A stretch of 64,000 nt of DNA, taken from Pedobacter alluvionis. Its GTDB lineage: Bacteria; Bacteroidota; Bacteroidia; Sphingobacteriales; Sphingobacteriaceae. This document shows positions 37,941-47,855 of this stretch, one piece after another; position 1 is the stretch's first letter; the number at the start of each line of letters is the position of its first letter. The DNA lies in contig NZ_RCCK01000012.1 of assembly GCF_003664035.1 (NCBI RefSeq), positions 1 through 64,000 on the forward strand, read 5' to 3'. The notes under the pieces are model-generated. The model was not told the origin of the DNA and searched no databases. It saw only the letters and a list, made by a program, of their open reading frames with translations. A program made the translations under genes and the position numbers.

Positions 37941-37948
37941 TATTTTTT

Positions 37949-37981
37949 AAACCACGCAGGTTTAAAAAATCTGCGTGGTTT
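37949..37981 (+). terminator. hairpin downstream of the lyase gene
   Basis: AAACCACGCAG and CTGCGTGGTTT form an 11-bp perfect stem with an 11-base loop, starting 9 bp after the lyase stop. The T run is short, so termination is probable but not certain. Confidence 0.6.
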
Positions 37982-37992
37982 GACTCATTTCC

Positions 37993-38060: not shown

Positions 38061-38131
38061 GGGGAATAGTTAAACGATTCTATCGTTTGCAAACGATAAA
38101 CTAATCAACGCGCGTTAGCAAAGTATATTTT

Positions 38132-38164
38132 AAACCTCGCAGGTTTCAAAAAACTGCGGGGTTT
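38132..38164 (-). terminator. hairpin downstream of the AraC regulator
   Basis: AAACCTCGCAG and CTGCGGGGTTT pair over 11 bp (one wobble), 12 bp past the AraC stop. It resembles the hairpin at 37949 in arm sequence. The lack of a T run on the minus strand lowers certainty. Confidence 0.45.
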
Positions 38165-38175
38165 GTTATCCTGGC

Positions 38176-39045
38176 TTAATTCAAATACTTCCTTTTATAA
38201 TCCAATGGCGTCATTCCTGTTACTTTTTTAAAGTGCCTGTAAAAATTCGATACATTATTGAAGCCGCAATCAAAACAGATCATTTCGGTTGGCAGTTTAT
38301 TCTCAATCAGGAAACGACAGGCGTGGCTCACCCTGATCTCGATCAAAAAATCATAAAAAGTCTTTTTCGTCATTAATTTAAAATAACGGCAGAAAGAAGT
38401 CACGCTTAAATTGCTTAACGATGCCACTTCCTCTAAAGTAATATCCTTTTTATAATTACTAAGCGTATAATTGCAGATTTTATTGATGCGTAAAGTTTCC
38501 GATTCGTTCGATTGATAAAAAGTATTTTTACTGGTTACAATGGTCGAATATTCATCCGTTTCTGCGAGCGTTTTTAAGATCGAAAGTAAAATAATAATGC
38601 GGTCTAAATTCGTAGCATCAACAGCTGCCCGCATTAAATCAACCAGTTTATCTTTAGCCTTACCTTTAATTACCATGCCACTTTTGGCTTTTTCGAACAG
38701 TTTAGGAATCAGGTAAGCTTCGGGCAAAGTAAGCAGGTATTTGCCCAAACAATCAGGCAAAAAATGGATCACCATGGCTTCCGTTGTTAGATTGGGATTG
38801 TTCTGGAAATACTCATCCTTGCAGCGCCAGGTATGCGGCAGGTTTTCGCCCAGCAATACCATTTCGTCAGGCACAAAATTACTAATGTTATCGCCGATAA
38901 AACGTACACCTTCACCTTTGATTACATAATGGAGTTCCAGTTCGGGATGATAATGCCAGATGTTTCCAAAATCGGGTTTAACATCATGGCGGATACTAAA
39001 AGAACTTTGTAAAGTAATGGGAACTTTATGGAAATGGGGTTTCAT
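38176..39045 (-). CDS. AraC-family transcriptional regulator with cupin sensor domain
   Basis: I choose the ATG at 39045 (MKPHFHKVPITLQSSFSIRH) over a GTG at 39072. The N-terminal cupin (IWHYHPELELHYVIKGEGVR, DEMVLLGENLPHTWRC) should bind a sugar. The C-terminal double HTH has DITLEEVASLSNLSVTSFCR, then YFKLMTKKTFYDF and NVSNFYRHFKKVTGMTPLDY. It sits in the centre of the PUL on the opposite strand and is the only PUL regulator in the window, so it probably controls neighbouring glycosidase or SusCD transcription. Its ligand is unknown. Confidence 0.92.
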   Translation of the reverse strand: MKPHFHKVPITLQSSFSIRHDVKPDFGNIWHYHPELELHYVIKGEGVRFIGDNISNFVPDEMVLLGENLPHTWRCKDEYFQNNPNLTTEAMVIHFLPDCLGKYLLTLPEAYLIPKLFEKAKSGMVIKGKAKDKLVDLMRAAVDATNLDRIIILLSILKTLAETDEYSTIVTSKNTFYQSNESETLRINKICNYTLSNYKKDITLEEVASLSNLSVTSFCRYFKLMTKKTFYDFLIEIRVSHACRFLIENKLPTEMICFDCGFNNVSNFYRHFKKVTGMTPLDYKRKYLN

Positions 39046-39270
39046 CTCAGGATTAAAATATTTGGTTAGCACTGCAACAATCTACTAAGCTAAATTTTTG
39101 CAGCAGACATAAAGTTAAAGAGTTAAATGATAATATCCTATATTAATTGGCTAAAAACCATTAGAAAATAGTGTTTTTCTATGTTGAGTTTTGTATTAAG
39201 CCAAATGGGCGTAACCAAATTATAAACAGACAAATTATTTTCATATAAATTTTTTGTTTATTAATAAATT

Positions 39271-40140: not shown

Positions 40141-40358
40141 TTTATTTAAGAATACTTCATTTATATATGAATTTATTTATACCTTGTATGATCAATTAAA
40201 AAAGGTATAAATGCGCCTTAAATTTTGTTTTATGCTGAAAAATAATTCAAAATTTAACGGGGAGATTAGCTAGGATTACCAATTTAATTATAGTTCGAAT
40301 TATAATACATTTTCTAACCAGATAATTCACAGAGATCAAAATATAAATGAGCCAAATT
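40141..40358 (+). promoter_or_regulatory. long leader of the SusC operon, copy 1 of a duplicated regulatory region
   Basis: The 457-bp gap before SusC holds two blocks also found upstream of the pectate lyase. Block 1 (40141-40188) contains CATTTATATATGAAT, a near-palindrome, and ends TACCTTGTA, a possible -7 box. Block 2 (40301-40358) contains CATTTTCTAACCAGATAA and ends at ATGAGCCAAATT. The blocks are about 160 bp apart in both places. If transcription starts after block 1, the leader is about 360 nt and includes block 2. A 12-codon frame begins at the ATGAGCC. Confidence 0.6.
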
Positions 40359-40559
40359 ACCTTAAATTTTTTGTCCTATAAATTTTAATAAGCGTTAGTT
40401 GATGTTATCTTTTTTAAGGTAATAATTGATCGCCTATTACCGATAATTAATTTACGACGGTAATTATTATGAGGCCAAACTAGAGATGCCCCGAACATTA
40501 AATGGAGGAACCTTACTAATTCATCCAAAAATCAAATTAAAAACTAACCAAATAACAAT

Positions 40560-43500
40560 ATGAACTTAAAATTTTTACGCAAGATTTCTTTGCCTTTGCT
40601 GCTGATGCTCATGGCAAGTACAATGCTCTTTGCCCAGGATCGAAAGGTTACGGGCAAGGTGGTAGACCAGGCCGATGGGCAGGGGATTCCAGGAGTAAAT
40701 GTAAGCTTAAAGGGCATCCCTAGTAATGTGAGTACCAACGCTGATGGAAATTTTACCATTCAGGTAAAATCAGATGCAGATGTTTTAGTGTTTTCCTACA
40801 TCGGGTATGTAAGACAACAGATCGCTGTTGGCGCAAAAACAACGCTAACCGTTAGGCTGGTTTCTGAAAATAAGGACCTGGACGACGTGGTTGTAGTAGG
40901 ATATGGAACACAAAAAAGAGCCACGTTAACTGGCTCTGTGGTTGACATAAAAGCATCCGAGATCGAAGATCTGCCCGGCACTAACGTTGCTGCTGCATTA
41001 AGTGGCAGACTTTTGGGCGTTGGCGTTAGTGGAGGTATAGCTCGCCCGGGTGTTCCTGCAAAAATTACCATTAGAAATCCAAATGCCATTTTCTCTAAAG
41101 ATGGAGGTAGTACAGATCCCCTTTATGTTATTGATGGGGTAATACAGATTGATGGACAAGGAAAACCAGATGCCACAAACTTCGGGAATTTAGATGCTTC
41201 TGAGATTGAAACCATGTCGTTCTTAAAAGATGCATCTGCAGCAATTTATGGTACCCGTGGTGGTAACGGAGTTGTTTTGATAACCACAAAGCGCGGTAGG
41301 GTGGGTAAACCAAGAATAAGTTATAGTGGTTCGTATGCAGTTAATGATGAGGCCTATCGTACTAAAATGATGAGTGCTTATCAGTTTGGTCAGTATATGA
41401 ATATCCTCAATGGAGCAAACAGTAGCAATCCAAAATTGCCAGGAGTTGATAATTTCTTCTCTAACGACGAACTTGAGTATTTTAAAACCATTGATTACGA
41501 CCGTTTGGAAGATGCATGGAAATCTGCTTCTGATGTGCGGCATACCTTAAGTGTAAGTGGTGGTGCAGATAAAGCAACCTTTTTTGCAAGTGCATCATAC
41601 AATAAACAAAATGGAAATTTAGCCACATTGGATTATGATAGATGGAATTTTAGAGCAGGTACAGATGTAACTGTGGCGACTAATTTTAAGGTTGGCGTGC
41701 AGCTTTCCGGAAATAGTGGAAATTTGGTTAAAACGTTTAATAAAGTTTCGGGTGAAGGTGTTGAAGACGATTATAAGAATTTATTGCTTGCACCAAGATA
41801 TGTGCCAGATTACGTTAACGGTTTGCCTGTAAAACTTCCAGGAACAACAAACGATTTATCGAGATATCACTTTGGCGAAATTAACAGGCTAAACAATTTG
41901 GCAACCACTAAATCAAATCTTTTCTCCGTTAATGTTTATGCAGAATACGAATTACCATATATAAAAGGGTTGAAGGCCAGATTAGCTTACGCAAGAAATG
42001 CCGGTAATTCTGTTGGAGATCAGGTTGGTACATTTTATACCTTATATGAGTTTAACCGTTTAGGTGAAAATAAACATATTTACGAAGGATCAACAGTTTT
42101 AAGTTCGCTTAAGGTTACAAATGGTGATCGTCTTTATTATTCAAATACGAATCAAAAAAGTGAGCAGACCAATTTTGTATTAAATTATGCCAGAGACTTT
42201 GGTAAACACTCAGTAAGCGGCTTGTTTACAGTGGAAAAGTCAGAGTCTGAAAACGCACAGCAAGTTGTTTTTAAAGCAAGCCCAATTGCCGCTACAAATG
42301 GTCAGTTTAATTCGGCTACCGGGGCAATTGATGGTTCAACATCTGCTAACGAGGCCGGCTCCCTTTCATATGTAGGAAGAGCCAATTATGCATATGCAAA
42401 CAAATATTTAGCCGAATTCTTATTCAGAAGTGATGCTTCTACAAAATTTGCCCCTGAAAACTATTGGGGAAAATTTTATTCAGGATCTGTGGGCTGGGTA
42501 ATATCGGAAGAAAGTTTTTTTAAAGTACCAGCTGTAAATTATCTAAAACTTAGATATGCATTTGGTGTGCTTGGAAATGACCAGACCAAAGCATGGCTAT
42601 GGCGTCAGCGTTATACTTTCCAGGATGGAAAAGGTGGGGTTTTTGGTGGTAACTCTGCAACAACAGCCGGCTTTAAAATGGAAGCAGCCCCTAACAGAGA
42701 TGCAACCTGGAGTACAGAATATAAAAACAACATAGGTATTGATGCCAAGTTTTTAAAGAATAGACTAGGAGTTACTGTTGAGGGTTATTATAATCTGGCA
42801 CGAAATATTTTAATTGAACCAACGGCTAGTTTACCGGTAACAGTTGGAGGAACAGTGGCTTCAATAAATATGGGTTCAGCAGATTATTTTGGCTATGAGC
42901 TAGGTATTTCATGGGATGATAAAATTGGTAAAGATTTTAATTACGGAGTTAGCGCACGTTTCGGATGGAGTGATGATAAAGTGAAAGTAAGTAATTTTAA
43001 TGCTAACGATATTTTAAAACCCTGGATGCCAAAACCTGGCGAGTCTTCAGATAATGGGATGTGGGGTTATGATTATTTAGGAATGTTTAAGACCCAGGAT
43101 GAAGTAACCAACTATATTAATCAGAACAAAATTACCCAGGTTTTTGGCGTAGCCGCTAACCAGCTAAAGCCAGGAACACTTTATTATAGAGATGTGAGAG
43201 GTCCGCTTCAATCAGACGGAAGTTTTGCAGGTCCCGACGGAATAATTGATGAAAACGATCAGGTTCAGTTATCTAAAAAAGCCACCAACCATTACGGCTT
43301 TGGTATTACATTAAAAGCTGGATATAAAGGTTTTAGTGTTGATGCCGTTATTGCAGGGTCTTTTGGTGGATGGTCTGAAATAGACGAGCGCAAGCCATTA
43401 AATGCATCTATTGCAAGAAACTTTACAAGCCTTCCTGATATCTGGGGAAGTATATATGATCCGGCAATCAACCCGGGAGGTGTAATGCCAAACCCTAGCT

Positions 43501-43760
43501 TTGAAAGCATCAATTTAACGCCTACTTCTAACTTTTATAAAGTTAATGCAATGAGGATCCGGATACCTAGTTTCAATGTGAACTACAGTATTCCAAAAAT
43601 AATTGTAGAGAAACTTAAAATTAACAATGCCAGGGTTTTTGTATCTGCATTAAATCCTGTTAACCTTTATAATCCTTATACCTACAAAGGCCCGGATGGC
43701 GCATGGGATGCTTACCCCAATTTGCGTACGCTTTCTTTTGGTGTAAACTTAACCCTGTAA
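40560..43760 (+). CDS. SusC/RagA-family TonB-dependent outer-membrane transporter
   Basis: The 1066-residue protein has a signal peptide (MNLKFLRKISLPLLLMLMAS), a carboxypeptidase-regulatory-like domain (KVTGKVVDQADGQGIPGVNV, to about 105), a TonB-box/plug region (VVVVGYGTQKRATLTGSV, LYVIDGVIQ, SAAIYGTRGGNGVVLITTK) and a large beta-barrel ending LRTLSFGVNLTL. There is no N-terminal STN signalling domain, so it is not a sigma/anti-sigma-coupled transducer. With SusD it imports oligosaccharides into the periplasm. A very long leader precedes it. Confidence 0.97.
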   Translation: MNLKFLRKISLPLLLMLMASTMLFAQDRKVTGKVVDQADGQGIPGVNVSLKGIPSNVSTNADGNFTIQVKSDADVLVFSYIGYVRQQIAVGAKTTLTVRLVSENKDLDDVVVVGYGTQKRATLTGSVVDIKASEIEDLPGTNVAAALSGRLLGVGVSGGIARPGVPAKITIRNPNAIFSKDGGSTDPLYVIDGVIQIDGQGKPDATNFGNLDASEIETMSFLKDASAAIYGTRGGNGVVLITTKRGRVGKPRISYSGSYAVNDEAYRTKMMSAYQFGQYMNILNGANSSNPKLPGVDNFFSNDELEYFKTIDYDRLEDAWKSASDVRHTLSVSGGADKATFFASASYNKQNGNLATLDYDRWNFRAGTDVTVATNFKVGVQLSGNSGNLVKTFNKVSGEGVEDDYKNLLLAPRYVPDYVNGLPVKLPGTTNDLSRYHFGEINRLNNLATTKSNLFSVNVYAEYELPYIKGLKARLAYARNAGNSVGDQVGTFYTLYEFNRLGENKHIYEGSTVLSSLKVTNGDRLYYSNTNQKSEQTNFVLNYARDFGKHSVSGLFTVEKSESENAQQVVFKASPIAATNGQFNSATGAIDGSTSANEAGSLSYVGRANYAYANKYLAEFLFRSDASTKFAPENYWGKFYSGSVGWVISEESFFKVPAVNYLKLRYAFGVLGNDQTKAWLWRQRYTFQDGKGGVFGGNSATTAGFKMEAAPNRDATWSTEYKNNIGIDAKFLKNRLGVTVEGYYNLARNILIEPTASLPVTVGGTVASINMGSADYFGYELGISWDDKIGKDFNYGVSARFGWSDDKVKVSNFNANDILKPWMPKPGESSDNGMWGYDYLGMFKTQDEVTNYINQNKITQVFGVAANQLKPGTLYYRDVRGPLQSDGSFAGPDGIIDENDQVQLSKKATNHYGFGITLKAGYKGFSVDAVIAGSFGGWSEIDERKPLNASIARNFTSLPDIWGSIYDPAINPGGVMPNPSFESINLTPTSNFYKVNAMRIRIPSFNVNYSIPKIIVEKLKINNARVFVSALNPVNLYNPYTYKGPDGAWDAYPNLRTLSFGVNLTL

Positions 43761-43799
43761 TAGCAGGGAAATTTGTAAATTCAATAATCTATTATAGAG

Positions 43800-45812
43800 A
43801 TGAAAAGAAATAAAATATTAGGTTTAATTACTGTAATGATTATCCTAGCCAGTAGCTGTAAAGATTCATTTCTCGAAGAAAAGAGGGATCTGGCCGGTTA
43901 CAATGAAGAAGTTTTTAAAGATGCGGCCTTAGCCCAGGGTTATGTAGACTATGTTTATGGCCTGTTCCTACCCGCAAATAATGCACAGTCTCTCTCGTGG
44001 AATTTAGCTACCAATAACGATACCTTTGCAAAAACAACTGATGAATTTGCTGGTGAAACAGATTTTAATAAAATTTGGGCATCAATAAGCTATACAAATG
44101 CACACGCATTGAATTATTTCGGCGCGAGGCTTTCAACTAGCATAGTTAATAATCCTTACACCAGATTAAAACAGATTAATATCTTTTTGGCTGAAATTGA
44201 TAAAAATGGCTTGCCAGAAGATATAAGAAATAAGTTGAAAGGGCAGATGTACTTCTGGCGGGCATGGCAGTATTTCGATCTGTTAAGATTATACGGTGGC
44301 GTTCCTTTGGCATTAACACCGCAAGACCCTATTCTGGCTGATGGAACTGAGTTGCAAATTCCAAGAAGTTCTTCATCTGCTTGTATTAAACAGATTTTAG
44401 CTGATCTAGACATGGCACAATCGTTATTGCCTGGAAAATGGGGCGGATCTGATTGGGGTCGAATTACAAGCGGAGCATGTGCCGCAATGAAAGGCCGGGT
44501 ACTGTTAACATGGGCCAGTCCATTATTTAACCGTACCGATGATGTTACACGCTGGGAAGCCGCATACCAGGCAAATTTAGCTGCTAAAACATTATTGGAA
44601 GAAAACGGTGGAGGCTTATTTAAAAATGGAGGTACAGCTAATGGCGTGGCCTGGGGTAATATGTGGTTTTCTGAAGTGAACAATCCAGAAGCAGTAATCG
44701 TTTATGGTTTTAACAATTTAGCAATAGGTGGTAACACGACTAAGAATAGTGGCTGGGAGCAAGCTGCGCGTTCAAAAGAAATAAATGGTGGAGGGGCATT
44801 ATCGCCAACACGCGAACTTGTAGATGCTTTCCCAATGAAGGATGGTAAAATGCCTGGCACATCTGCAACATACATTTACGATGCTAAGAAATTCTATAAA
44901 AACAGAGATCCCCGTTTCTACAAAACATTTGCTTACAATGGGGCTATTTGGCCCTATGCCGGAAACGCTAACTTTAAGCAATGGACATATAAGTGGTATA
45001 AAACTGCTGCAGAAACAGTACCTAGCTTGACTACCGAAACTAAAGGTGCTAATGCAAGTGCAATTTATATCAGCAAAGCAACAAATCCGGCCGCCTCAAA
45101 TGCGAATGGAAACTTCCAGCAAAGTGGCATGGATTTCATGGAAATGCGGTTTGCCGAGGTTATTTTAAATCTGGCAGAATCAGCTATAGGATCTAATCGG
45201 CTGACTGAAGGTTTAGAAGGAATTAAGTCGATTAGAGAACGGGCTGGCGTGGAAAATTTAGATGGTGTATATGGTTTATCAGGTGCAGCAAGCAGAGATC
45301 AGTTGTTCTCCGCAGTGCTAAAAGAGAGAAACATCGAGTTTGCATACGAAGGAAAAAAGTTTTTTGATCTTAGACGCTGGATGTTATTTGAAGAAGATTC
45401 TCCGACAGCGCTTCGTTTGGGTATAAAACCATTAAATGGAACACGCAGGACGGGTTATTTTATTGCCGTAAAATCTTTGGCGGGAGCGAAATATGTAGGC
45501 AATAATGATCCTCTGATTAAACCTGCAACAGGTAACGCACCAATAATCGATCGCGATCCTGCAACTTACCCAACCCCAAATGGCAGCGCAAATTATGCAG
45601 CATATTTAGATTACTTGTACGATAATGTTTTCGTAATTATGGTTAAAGATGATCTCGACAAAACAAACCCTACTGACTGGAAATTCAAGTGGTATCCAGA
45701 ATACTATTTTTTTGGGCTAAATGAAAATATTTTAAGTTCATCTCCTTATTTAGAACAAACTAAAGGATGGAACAGCCTTAAAGGTGCTGGCACTTTTGAT
45801 CCGTTAAAATAA
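43800..45812 (+). CDS. SusD/RagB-family glycan-binding lipoprotein
   Basis: The 670-residue protein has a lipoprotein signal (ILASSCKDSF). The helical SusD core is visible in RLKQINIFLAEIDKNGLPED, KGQMYFWRAWQYFDLLRLYG and GVPLALTPQDPI. The C-terminal signature is MEMRFAEVILNLAESAIGSN, then ERNIEFAYEGKKFFDLRRWM. It lies 39 bp after SusC, and the two form the import complex on the cell surface. A strong terminator follows. Its size is on the large side for SusD, which suits a big branched glycan. Confidence 0.96.
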   Translation: MKRNKILGLITVMIILASSCKDSFLEEKRDLAGYNEEVFKDAALAQGYVDYVYGLFLPANNAQSLSWNLATNNDTFAKTTDEFAGETDFNKIWASISYTNAHALNYFGARLSTSIVNNPYTRLKQINIFLAEIDKNGLPEDIRNKLKGQMYFWRAWQYFDLLRLYGGVPLALTPQDPILADGTELQIPRSSSSACIKQILADLDMAQSLLPGKWGGSDWGRITSGACAAMKGRVLLTWASPLFNRTDDVTRWEAAYQANLAAKTLLEENGGGLFKNGGTANGVAWGNMWFSEVNNPEAVIVYGFNNLAIGGNTTKNSGWEQAARSKEINGGGALSPTRELVDAFPMKDGKMPGTSATYIYDAKKFYKNRDPRFYKTFAYNGAIWPYAGNANFKQWTYKWYKTAAETVPSLTTETKGANASAIYISKATNPAASNANGNFQQSGMDFMEMRFAEVILNLAESAIGSNRLTEGLEGIKSIRERAGVENLDGVYGLSGAASRDQLFSAVLKERNIEFAYEGKKFFDLRRWMLFEEDSPTALRLGIKPLNGTRRTGYFIAVKSLAGAKYVGNNDPLIKPATGNAPIIDRDPATYPTPNGSANYAAYLDYLYDNVFVIMVKDDLDKTNPTDWKFKWYPEYYFFGLNENILSSSPYLEQTKGWNSLKGAGTFDPLK

Positions 45813-45827
45813 ATGAGTTAAGATCTT

Positions 45828-45857
45828 AGGGCGGTTTGCTCACCGCCTTGGTTTTTT
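45828..45857 (+). terminator. terminator of the susCD operon
   Basis: An 8-bp GC-rich stem (AGGGCGGT / ACCGCCTT) with a 6-base loop is followed by GGTTTTTTA. It lies 15 bp past the SusD stop and makes susCD a separate unit from the lyase gene. Confidence 0.85.
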
Positions 45858-45901
45858 ATATTTGGTTTTTGAAAAAAGGGAACATTAATTTGTTTCCTTT
45901 T

Positions 45902-46132
45902 TTTATTCAAGAATGTTACATTTATATATGAATATAATTACTATCTTGTAACATGGCTCAGAGAACGAAATTAATTTGTTATAGGTATTTTAGTCTATTG
46001 ATAAAATAGTACAATAGCTAGCCAAAATTATACCATAAATAGCCGCTTTTTGCGTGCAAAATTGAAATATAATATACTTTCTAACCATAATTATTTACAG
46101 GGATAGACAAAGAAATGAGCCATGAATTTTAA
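45902..46132 (+). promoter_or_regulatory. leader of the pectate-lyase operon, copy 2 of a duplicated regulatory region
   Basis: After the susCD terminator, block 1 (45902-45950; ACATTTATATATGAAT, then CTATCTTGTA) and block 2 (46067-46132; ATACTTTCTAACCATAATTA, ending AAATGAGCCATGAATT) repeat the layout seen before SusC. In between lie an AGCTAGCCAAAATTA stretch and A/T-rich DNA. The shared elements suggest a common regulator or a leader RNA for both transcripts. Confidence 0.6.
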
Positions 46133-46202
46133 TATAAGCAATCAGTTTTTTGCTGGTCAAAATAATTCGTAACTTATTGATCTTCCCAACGAGCAAACAC
46201 AA

Positions 46203-47855
46203 ATGAAAAAGAACTTTTTAAATCTGTTGTGCACAACAGCATTAATTCTCTCGGCAAATTATACGTTTGCACAATACCCGAATATTCCGGCAAACATCAA
46301 AAAGTCTTCTGATTCAATGATGAAAGAAGCTTATCGCCAATCAGACATCGCCTGGGAAAAAGCGAAACCCATTATGGCAAAAGAAGCTGCTGAAGGTAAG
46401 CCATATATTCCATGGGCTGGCCGACCGACCGATTTACCTCAATCTAAATTATTGGCCTTTCCAGGTGCAGAAGGCGGAGGTGCATATAGCTTTGGTGGTC
46501 ACGGCGGCAGGGTAATTGTAGTCAAAAATTTAAACGATAGTGGTCCGGGCTCTTTACGTGATGCCTGCGAACAAGGTGGGGCGAGGATTGTTGTTTTCAA
46601 TGTTGCGGGAATCATCAGGTTGAAAACACCATTAATTATCCGTGCCCCATATATTACTATTGCCGGACAAACGGCGCCTGGCGATGGTGTTTGTGTAGCT
46701 GGAGAATCAGTTTGGTTAAATACCCATGACGTTATTGTTCGCTTTATGCGTTTTAGAAGAGGTGAAACTTTTGTAGGTCGCCGCGATGATGCCATAGGCG
46801 GAAATCCGGTTGGAAACATCATGATTGATCACGTTTCTGCCAGTTGGGGCTTAGATGAAAATATGTCCATGTATCGCCACATGTATAATGATAGCACAGG
46901 TAAAGCCGAAGAAAAATTAGGAACAGTTAACATTACGATCCAAAACTCTATTTTCTCTGAAGCTTTAGATTATTGGAATCACGCTTTCGGGAGTACCTTA
47001 GGTGGCGAAAACTGTGCGTTTGTACGTAATCTTTGGGCCGATAATGGCGCCCGTAATCCATCAATTGGTTGGAACGGCATTTTTAACTTTGCCAATAACG
47101 TAGTGTTTAACTGGAACAACCGCTCAACAGATGGCGGCGATTATACCGCGCAGTACAATATCATCAATAACTTTTACAAACCTGGTCCCGTTACTGAGTT
47201 AAAAGACCCGATCAGCTACCGTATTTTAAAGCCGGAATCTGGTCGCAGTAAATTACCTTATGTTGTTTTCGGACGTGCTTATGTAGCAGGAAATATCATT
47301 GATGGCAATGAAAAAGTAACTAAAGACAACTGGAATGGAGGTGTTCAGTTAGAAGATAAAAAAGGGAACCTCATGTCGTTTGAAACTGCAAGTAAATATT
47401 TCGCAGCAATGAAAGCTAAAGATCCATTCCCGATGCCTAAAATCAGCATTATCCCAACGTTACAAGCGAAAGACTATGTATTGGCAAATGCAGGTGCTAC
47501 CTTACCAAAGAGAGATCCGGTTGATACCCGCGTAGTTAAACAGGTGGCTACCGGAAAAATTGAAGTTCACCCCAACGCTAAACCATCTGCATTCCAATTC
47601 GAACACCGCAGATTACCTGGCGATTCTTACAAACAAGGTATCATTACAGAAGTTTCTCAGGTAGGTGGTTATCCGGAATATAAAGGAACGCCTTATAAAG
47701 ATAGCGACGATGATGGGATGCCAGATGCATACGAAATTAAAAATGGCTTGAATCCTAAAGATGCAAAGGATGCTACAAAGCTATCGAAATCTGATTATGC
47801 CAATATTGAAGTTTATTTGAATAGTTTGGTGGATGTAAATAAGGTGAGGCCTTAG
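46203..47855 (+). CDS. PL1-type pectate lyase with C-terminal Ca-binding tail
   Basis: The 550-residue secreted protein (signal MKKNFLNLLCTTALILSANY, then TFAQ) is a right-handed beta-helix of pectate-lyase type. Visible are AFPGAEGGGAYSFGGHGGRV, SGPGSLRDACEQGGARIVVF, YITIAGQTAPGDGV, RRDDAIGGNPVGNIMIDHVS (Asp-rich Ca site) and ARNPSIGWNGIFNFANNVV. The C terminus has a thrombospondin-type-3 repeat (DSDDDGMPDAYEIKNGLNPK). It cleaves polygalacturonate by beta-elimination, probably giving entry to the backbone. Confidence 0.92.
   Translation: MKKNFLNLLCTTALILSANYTFAQYPNIPANIKKSSDSMMKEAYRQSDIAWEKAKPIMAKEAAEGKPYIPWAGRPTDLPQSKLLAFPGAEGGGAYSFGGHGGRVIVVKNLNDSGPGSLRDACEQGGARIVVFNVAGIIRLKTPLIIRAPYITIAGQTAPGDGVCVAGESVWLNTHDVIVRFMRFRRGETFVGRRDDAIGGNPVGNIMIDHVSASWGLDENMSMYRHMYNDSTGKAEEKLGTVNITIQNSIFSEALDYWNHAFGSTLGGENCAFVRNLWADNGARNPSIGWNGIFNFANNVVFNWNNRSTDGGDYTAQYNIINNFYKPGPVTELKDPISYRILKPESGRSKLPYVVFGRAYVAGNIIDGNEKVTKDNWNGGVQLEDKKGNLMSFETASKYFAAMKAKDPFPMPKISIIPTLQAKDYVLANAGATLPKRDPVDTRVVKQVATGKIEVHPNAKPSAFQFEHRRLPGDSYKQGIITEVSQVGGYPEYKGTPYKDSDDDGMPDAYEIKNGLNPKDAKDATKLSKSDYANIEVYLNSLVDVNKVRP

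Follow-up and report, generated by a model that had tools for sequence, protein, structure and literature searches.

The window analyzed here (i.e., C3:1-64000, the first 64,000 nt of a Pedobacter alluvionis contig; genome, 6.04 Mb in 18 contigs) contains two long leaders, one preceding a SusC-type importer gene and the other preceding a gene named pectate lyase in the original prediction, that share two sequence blocks. On balance, we favor the view that these leaders form a two-layer control region, in which block 1 would be the operator-promoter of an AraC-family regulator and block 2 the docking site of a small RNA (sRNA) encoded behind gapA.

The shared two-block leader

The two-block leader is real, and both blocks lie where they had been reported (i.e., within 40141-40358 and 45902-46132). 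In block 2, TTTCTAACC occupies 40311-40319 in the SusC leader and 46078-46086 in the lyase leader, and ATGAGCC occupies 40347-40353 and 46115-46121, respectively (other coordinates are given in Table 1). The 10-mer CTTTCTAACC is exact before the lyase only; the SusC leader carries TTTTCTAACC instead. The spacing is nearly equal, as predicted (block 1 to TTTCTAACC, 151 bp in the SusC leader and 157 bp in the lyase leader), and block 1 begins 400 nt before the SusC start codon and 282 nt before the lyase start codon. The DNA between the blocks has diverged, as had been noted, yet the middles of the two leaders can still be aligned.

In the genome as a whole, the blocks are not randomly scattered, and the best matches are confined to the two leaders. 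A 33-nt block 1 pattern with up to 3 mismatches matched these two places only. A block 1 model gave E values of 5e-14 and 8e-9 at the two leaders (next match, 0.3), and a block 2 model gave 1e-10 and 4e-7 (next match, 0.02). The next-best matches of the block 2 model comprised one inside a SusC gene and two at apparent starts of other genes. On other contigs of this genome (L298 and L299), TTTCTAACCA stands immediately before two apparent non-SusC gene starts, which may be further sRNA targets. Taken alone, the short words were not significantly enriched in the window, where 9 matches to TTTATATATGAAT at 2 mismatches compare with 6.5 expected and 6 matches to CTTTCTAACC at 1 mismatch compare with 4.5 expected; a rigid block 2 pattern found no match, even at the two known places, because the spacing differs between the two leaders.

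We searched 145 Pedobacter genomes (the genus set) and compared 61 loci (i.e., the window and 60 stretches from 59 genomes picked for the two-block pattern or a lyase orthologue). The rows represent related species, so the counts given here are not independent. The pattern TTTATATATGAA-N(125-155)-TTTCTAACC occurred at 86 places in 44 of the 145 genomes, and the reversed pattern occurred at none. When up to 2 mismatches were allowed across both words, 97 elements were detected in 50 of the 61 loci (48 preceding SusC and 49 preceding the lyase); 10 loci carried three elements (two SusCs plus the lyase), and 11 carried none. The spacing before the lyase was 157 in 28 of the 49 leaders (range, 144 to 160), and that before SusC ranged from 114 to 159. 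In the stretches examined, the leader precedes SusC genes and the lyase even when the SusC is a different paralogue. In G107 (L098), for example, the SusC leader is nearly identical to that of the window, and the SusC behind it is only 46% identical. The SusC/SusD pair behind a fixed leader thus appears exchangeable (window position 40560; L098).

Block 2 and a candidate sRNA gene behind gapA

Block 2 is probably a target of a putative gapA-linked sRNA, as predicted from its complementarity to that RNA. The pattern TTTCTAACC-N(14-34)-ATGAGCC matched in 57 of the 145 genomes, and each of the 57 has a match on the strand opposite the sRNA core, at one conserved position away from the locus. Beyond the locus and the sRNA gene, the pattern occurred at 4 places (the reversed pattern, at 11), which were in G009, G030, G047, and G131. 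The first two look like chance matches, since one lies within a coding gene (L137) and the other is intergenic with the next gene running in the opposite direction (L138).

In this genome, the sRNA core lies at C1:540303-540333, between gapA and a Crp-like gene. An alignment of 18 genomes revealed, on the strand opposite to the pattern match, the order expected of an RNA gene (i.e., a conserved upstream stretch, a TATATTTG box, then a more variable 5' half, the conserved core, and a terminator, followed by divergence). From the box and the terminator, we estimate a length of about 165 nt. The upstream stretch also contains a conserved palindrome (TAGTGTA-N6-TACACTA) before the TATATTTG box, with the Crp-like gene on the other side (L123:3262-3437, minus strand, C1). 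The core AAAGCCUGGCUCAUAACAGGUUUAUAUUUGGUUAGA is uniform in 45 distinct rows except for one 1-nt deletion; this uniformity is not an independent test because the search pattern required most of the core. In 21 rows found otherwise (including 20 more diverged ones found via a covariance model), ACAGGUUUAUAUUUGGUUAG is invariant and the loop seed is variable; three weaker matches to the model deviate from ACAGGUUUAUAUUUGGUUAG (G026, G124, and G036). In the predicted fold, GCUCAUAA occupies the loop of a hairpin, whereas the UGGUUAGAAA seed falls in the linker before the terminator. The terminator stem covaries, with both sides changed in 10 of 13 pairs, while the seed hairpin never varies and is therefore uninformative in this respect.

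The covariance model matched 141 of the 145 genomes at an E value of 0.01 (the misses being G097, G103, G108, and G109), with up to 5 matches per genome, the weak ones of which may be due to chance. There is one copy in this genome and 1 to 4 copies in the 21 genomes counted. Among 395 genomes drawn from across the class, the model gave 8 matches at 0.001 (i.e., 6 in the genus and 2 weak ones elsewhere). The core was detected in 48 stretches of a collection of named genomes, of which 47 are labeled Pedobacter and 1 is a Sphingobacteriaceae metagenome-assembled genome, and in 0 viral stretches. Of 86 rows, 75 have gapA upstream of the core in the same orientation; the other 11 are stretches without gapA, among them secondary copies and cut stretches, and some rows represent one genome under two names. 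In 11 rows, 19 to 23 nt separate the core from the end of gapA and there is no TATATTTG box; in 64 rows, the core lies 407 to 717 nt behind gapA. The clade of the window has an sRNA gene with its own TATATTTG box, about 410 to 420 nt further behind gapA. Secondary copies with altered loop seeds (GGUUCAU, GUCUCAU, GGCUCAA, and GGUUCUU) occur behind other genes (L235, L237, L238, and L239) and may have other mRNA targets.

AUGAGCC is the reverse complement of the sRNA segment GGCUCAU, and UUUCUAACCA is that of UGGUUAGAAA, with sites and segments arranged antiparallel to each other; AUGAGCCR is likewise complementary to the sRNA core. The energy of the predicted hybrid between the core and block 2 had a mean z of -5.15 against dinucleotide shuffles, with 98% of 97 leaders below -2, compared with -0.16 (7% below -2) for the leader middles and -0.28 (13%) for 31 other gene starts of the window. 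In 69 of 72 cases, TGAGCC is followed by a purine (A or G), which fits an A-U or G-U pair with the U of the sRNA.

In the sRNA loop of some species, GUUCAU replaces GCUCAU. The GCUCAU form paired better with 86 of the 91 leaders of GCUCAU-type genomes (mean, -25.8 versus -19.8 for the GUUCAU form). At the lyase, UGAGC was present in 33 of 42 GCUCAU-type genomes versus 3 of 16 GUUCAU-type genomes (59 of the 61 loci have a usable lyase start, and the type of one genome is unsettled). That the leader motif follows the loop-seed type is suggestive, a grade we keep because the species are related. Separately, GAGC occurs just before the lyase start (46184-46202 in the window, and in its relatives) in 26 of 42 GCUCAU-type and 0 of 16 GUUCAU-type genomes, and GAAC occurs there in 7 of 16 GUUCAU-type and 5 of 42 GCUCAU-type genomes; these words could reflect a further seed contact or kinship.

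The linker seed is also complementary to start-codon regions. Within -50 to +15 of the start, CTAACC was found at 62 of 69 SusC genes of this locus type and at 23 of 39 AraC genes, compared with 3 of 57 SusD, 0 of 20 DUF3826, 2 of 40 DUF6298, and 5 of 111 lyase genes; the reversed word occurred at most once in each gene class. Starts with z below -2 (single-base shuffles) numbered 34 of 69 for SusC, 23 for AraC, 7 for SusD, 0 for DUF3826, 3 for DUF6298, and 6 for the lyase. The SusC site lies mostly at -14 to -19, even though the proteins are 26 to 100% identical to that of the window. AACCAA was found near the AraC start in 32 of 39 cases. In rows anchored on this word, the preceding T stood at 0.91 and the ATAT behind it at 0.94, 0.94 (with the preceding A), 0.78, and 0.97, with most flanking positions at 0.34 to 0.72. 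Genome-wide, targeting of SusC starts (chosen by a rule of thumb) was weak: 13 of 56 lay below z -2, compared with 4 of 31 starts of other genes, and enrichment extended to words that have no counterpart in the sRNA.

Several observations weigh against pairing between block 2 and the sRNA. By raw energy, the block 2 sites rank only 11th and 12th among the non-overlapping sites of the window, and the whole sRNA folds little better than its shuffles (z, -1.44; 18 of 200 as good). UGAGC is missing from 9 of the 42 GCUCAU-type lyase leaders, the matching UGAAC occurs in only 2 of the 16 GUUCAU-type genomes (0 of 42 GCUCAU-type genomes), and the leaders of GUUCAU-type genomes are evenly split, with 3 of 6 pairing better with their own form. 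In addition, TTTATATATAAAT lies at -53 of the lyase start, downstream of block 2, in G037, G052, and G128; if it is a promoter, block 2 is outside the lyase mRNA in these genomes.

The alternative that fares best, although it is unlikely, is that block 2 acts at the DNA level, as a further promoter or as a protein-binding site (e.g., a loop partner of block 1), and that the sRNA match is incidental. In favor of this alternative, a conserved TATAC directly before TTTCTAACC is unexplained by sRNA pairing, and the spacing from block 1 is narrow in the lyase leaders (157 in 28 of 49). The SusC leaders, by contrast, vary in their spacing, and both motifs match a single RNA core in order and strand, with a purine favored after TGAGCC and few other occurrences of the pattern (4 versus 11 for the control). 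Block 2 also survives the loss of block 1, since the leader body and (A)TCTAACCA persist 64 to 125 nt before the lyase in genomes in which block 1 is not in place (e.g., G037, G052, G069, G128, G001, G011, and G036).

We give slightly less weight to a short leader open reading frame (M-S-H/Q/R...) starting in block 2, whose translation, alone or together with the sRNA, would control the downstream gene. The A-rich run before the AUG resembles a Bacteroidota start region, and a near match to AAATGAGCC was found in 83 of 97 leaders, 75 of which retain AUG (GTG in 2 and TTG in 1). However, AUG is replaced by AGG, ATT, ATA, or ATC in 5 of the 83, and the motif was not found in 14 of the 97. Conserved short frames starting at ATGAGCC had been predicted, and this claim did not hold, because the shared peptide ends after M-S-(H/Q/R) and the frames, at 3 to 62 codons, are no longer than those in another frame (median, 11 versus 12). 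We therefore rejected a leader peptide.

It is quite improbable that the leaders are merely duplicated promoter DNA, alike by descent and with no further function. The alignable middles agree with common descent, but the blocks stay near-invariant even as the DNA between them drifts and paralogues of about 32 to 88% identity take the place of the SusC behind the leader. Least probable of all is a folded riboswitch or attenuator, which the great length and narrow length range of the leaders might suggest and which we rejected, since consensus energies in four alignment subsets were either 0 or no more than 0.5 standard deviations away from those of shuffled columns, single leaders (up to 25 per subset) showed no gain in folding over their shuffles (mean z, -0.25 to -0.98), and neither leader had an Rfam match. 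A pairing between the 5' end of the window's lyase leader and AUGAGCC, seen by eye, was absent from the SusC consensus and was likewise discarded.

Block 1, the AraC-family regulator, and the surrounding locus

In its layout, block 1 resembles a promoter that carries a pair of 13-bp half-sites of the AraC type at a spacing of 19 bp, and it is probably an operator of the AraC-family protein encoded nearby. In 37 aligned block 1 regions (of 86 distinct ones, chosen for spread), TTTATTTAAGAAT and TTTATATATGAAT are arranged as direct repeats at an interval of 19 bp and are followed by a TAnnTTG box, which is mostly retained; in G026, G027, and G091, the box lies 10 bp further downstream, or about one helical turn (counted by eye). 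The neighboring protein contains an AraC-type helix-turn-helix domain (HTH_18, E value of 2.8e-19; HTH_AraC, 2e-12; Pfam). Its homologues (E value of 1e-80) were detected in 75 of the 145 genomes, i.e., in 42 of the 44 genomes with the two-block pattern and 33 of the 101 without it (Fisher test, 2.4e-13, kinship ignored).

When a block 1 half-site model was applied to 39 AraC upstream regions, a spacing of 19 was the best of 15 tried (15.8; shuffled, -12.6; next, 7.6 at 15), and the best pair lay on the plus strand in 25 regions and on the minus strand in 14. These regions are orthologous, so this result is close to a single observation. The full block 1 weight matrix gave low scores on the AraC upstream regions. 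The operator reading also has to accommodate exceptions in both directions: G061 and G073 carry block 1 without an AraC match at 1e-80, and ten genomes (G001, G011, G036, G037, G038, G052, G069, G110, G114, and G128) carry the regulator (85 to 89% identity) without a close block 1 in the usual place. A stop codon was reported within the AraC match in G020, G141, G080, G079, G074, G055, G018, and G114, possibly through gene decay or assembly error. ATG 39045 is more likely to be the start of the regulator gene than the listed GTG 39072, because many homologues begin at residue 10.

Table 1. Features of the two leaders and of the adjacent genes in the window
Feature	Positions	Strand	Remarks
SusC-type importer gene	40560..43760	+	start codon 40560
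Lyase gene	46203..47855	+	called pectate lyase in the original prediction
AraC-family regulator gene	38176..39045	-	ATG 39045 preferred over listed GTG 39072
SusC leader block 1	40141..40172	+	direct half-sites TTTATTTAAGAAT (40141-40153) and TTTATATATGAAT (40160-40172), 19 bp apart; proposed AraC operator
SusC leader -7-like box TACCTTG	40180..40186	+	proposed promoter
SusC leader block 2, linker-seed site UUUCUAACCA	40311..40320	+	
SusC leader block 2, loop-seed site AUGAGCCA	40347..40354	+	
SusC start region CUAACCAAAU	40544..40553	+	complementary to sRNA linker seed; start codon 40560
Lyase leader block 1	45902..45933	+	half-sites TTTATTCAAGAAT (45902-45914) and TTTATATATGAAT (45921-45933), 19 bp apart
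Lyase leader -7-like box TATCTTG	45942..45948	+	
Lyase leader block 2, linker-seed site UUUCUAACCA	46078..46087	+	
Lyase leader block 2, loop-seed site AUGAGCCA	46115..46122	+	
AraC start region CUAACCAAAUAU	39058..39069	-	complementary to sRNA linker seed
Tandem half-sites upstream of AraC gene	39238..39269	+	19 bp apart; proposed further AraC operator

Pfam matches near the leaders (i.e., GH28, GH95, GH2, GH43, rhamnosidase, apiosidase-like, SusC, SusD, DUF3826, and an AraC-type regulator) mark the surroundings as a pectin/rhamnogalacturonan utilization locus. The lyase (46203-47855) matched no Pfam family at 0.001. In the window, a single lyase is followed by DUF6298; in many relatives (e.g., L064-L071), a second lyase, about 62 to 70% identical, lies directly behind the first. 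Two near-copies (88%) of a 42-bp palindromic hairpin are located between a DHDPS-family gene and the AraC gene (37941-37982 and 38124-38165).

Proposed regulation and related systems

The original prediction had offered one regulator, a leader RNA, or an sRNA target as the link between importer and lyase expression. The regulator is favored by block 1, with its AraC-type half-sites and the co-occurrence of the AraC gene, and the sRNA target by the two antiparallel seeds of block 2; the folded leader RNA found no support. The SusC and lyase genes share an old control region, and one RNA could tune uptake and digestion together.

In the two-layer model, the adjacent AraC-family protein would bind the two 13-bp direct half-sites, 19 bp apart and next to the -7-like box, and would start both transcripts from block 1 when a pectin-derived ligand is present. 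In the transcripts, AUGAGCC of block 2 would pair with GCUCAU of the sRNA loop and UUUCUAACCA with UGGUUAGAAA of the linker, and the same linker would pair with the start-codon regions of the SusC and AraC mRNAs. The sRNA would thereby reach activator, importer, and lyase together, and it would most likely repress them when a glycolytic sugar is plentiful, by masking the start codons of SusC and AraC and, in the leaders, a region that would serve ribosome standby or enhance translation. We lean toward repression as the net effect by analogy, since FopS, in the portion of the report considered here, represses SusC translation near the start codon (PMC11697453); the sRNA could also activate. The position of the sRNA behind gapA suggests coupling to glycolysis. 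The analysis shows conservation, complementarity, the layout of the sRNA gene, and its position behind gapA; from these sequence data, we infer that the AraC protein binds, that the RNAs pair in vivo, in which direction expression shifts, and that sugar is the signal. More tentatively, carbon catabolite control in Pedobacter may have this sRNA as its RNA arm: produced behind the glycolytic gapA transcript, or from it in some species, the sRNA would report sugar flux and pair on three levels of a single locus, with the AraC mRNA, the SusC mRNA (start and distal site), and the lyase mRNA (distal two-seed site).

If this model is correct, Bacteroidota would have a new mode of control, in which distal docking through a loop plus a linker subjects an enzyme other than SusC to the same sRNA. 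The sRNA control of SusC importers shown for FopS in gut Bacteroides (PMC11697453, in part) would extend to Pedobacter. The analysis would also pinpoint an sRNA gene and each of its sites to the nucleotide and link a central gene of glycolysis with the uptake and digestion of pectin. With all seeds and sites named, single-base compensatory changes can test the pairing directly, which makes one case of carbon-source ranking at the RNA level testable in these bacteria.

The region resembles known systems in several respects. As in the case of AraC activators, an AraC-family gene lies alongside and two direct half-sites lie upstream of a promoter box. In araI1-I2 of Escherichia coli, the tandem direct half-sites near the promoter are 21 bp apart; here, the spacing is 19 bp, and binding is predicted from the sites. 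The 11 of 86 rows in which the core lies 19 to 23 nt after gapA, without its own TATATTTG box, are reminiscent of sRNAs derived from 3' untranslated regions, whereas the clade of the window has its own box and a greater distance from gapA. In E. coli, IstR-1 represses tisB at a distal standby site, a situation that may be comparable to an sRNA site located a long way ahead of a start codon; the standby site in our leaders is hypothetical.

Searches of a single open-access library, confined to terms for sRNAs in Pedobacter or Sphingobacteriaceae, at polysaccharide loci, or near gapA, turned up no description of this RNA. In the part of PMC2864571 considered, the only Pedobacter entry is the Pedo-repair motif, and the Rfam scan gave no Pedo-repair match (the presence of this family in the library is assumed from its number). 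GibS (RF04182; PMC7366714, in part) is similar in size (about 145 nt versus about 165 nt estimated here), has two seeds and start-codon targets, and is sugar-related. The weak Rfam alignment to GibS covers the same strand and extent as the sRNA, but at 16.7 bits (gathering score, 115; E value, 3.8), it is not a match.

According to the sections of PMC11697453 drawn on here, FopS is a family of paralogous sRNAs of Bacteroides thetaiotaomicron that associates with RbpB and represses the translation of SusC from a binding site close to the start codon. No family named FopS appeared among the Rfam matches up to an E value of 10; whether the library includes a FopS model was not checked. Like FopS, the Pedobacter sRNA is conserved, complementary to SusC start regions, linked to carbohydrate loci, and equipped with a terminator hairpin, and it has paralogues in many relatives. 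Unlike FopS, which has 14 copies (12 to 15 per genome), it is present in one copy in this genome (1 to 4 in the 21 genomes counted). FopS has a single-stranded 5' seed followed by a terminator hairpin, whereas the seeds here lie in a hairpin loop and in the linker just before the terminator, after about 90 to 100 nt of 5' RNA. The Pedobacter sRNA is further distinguished by its location behind gapA and by the distal two-seed site that serves the lyase. Thus, it appears to work like FopS and GibS, with membership in neither family shown.

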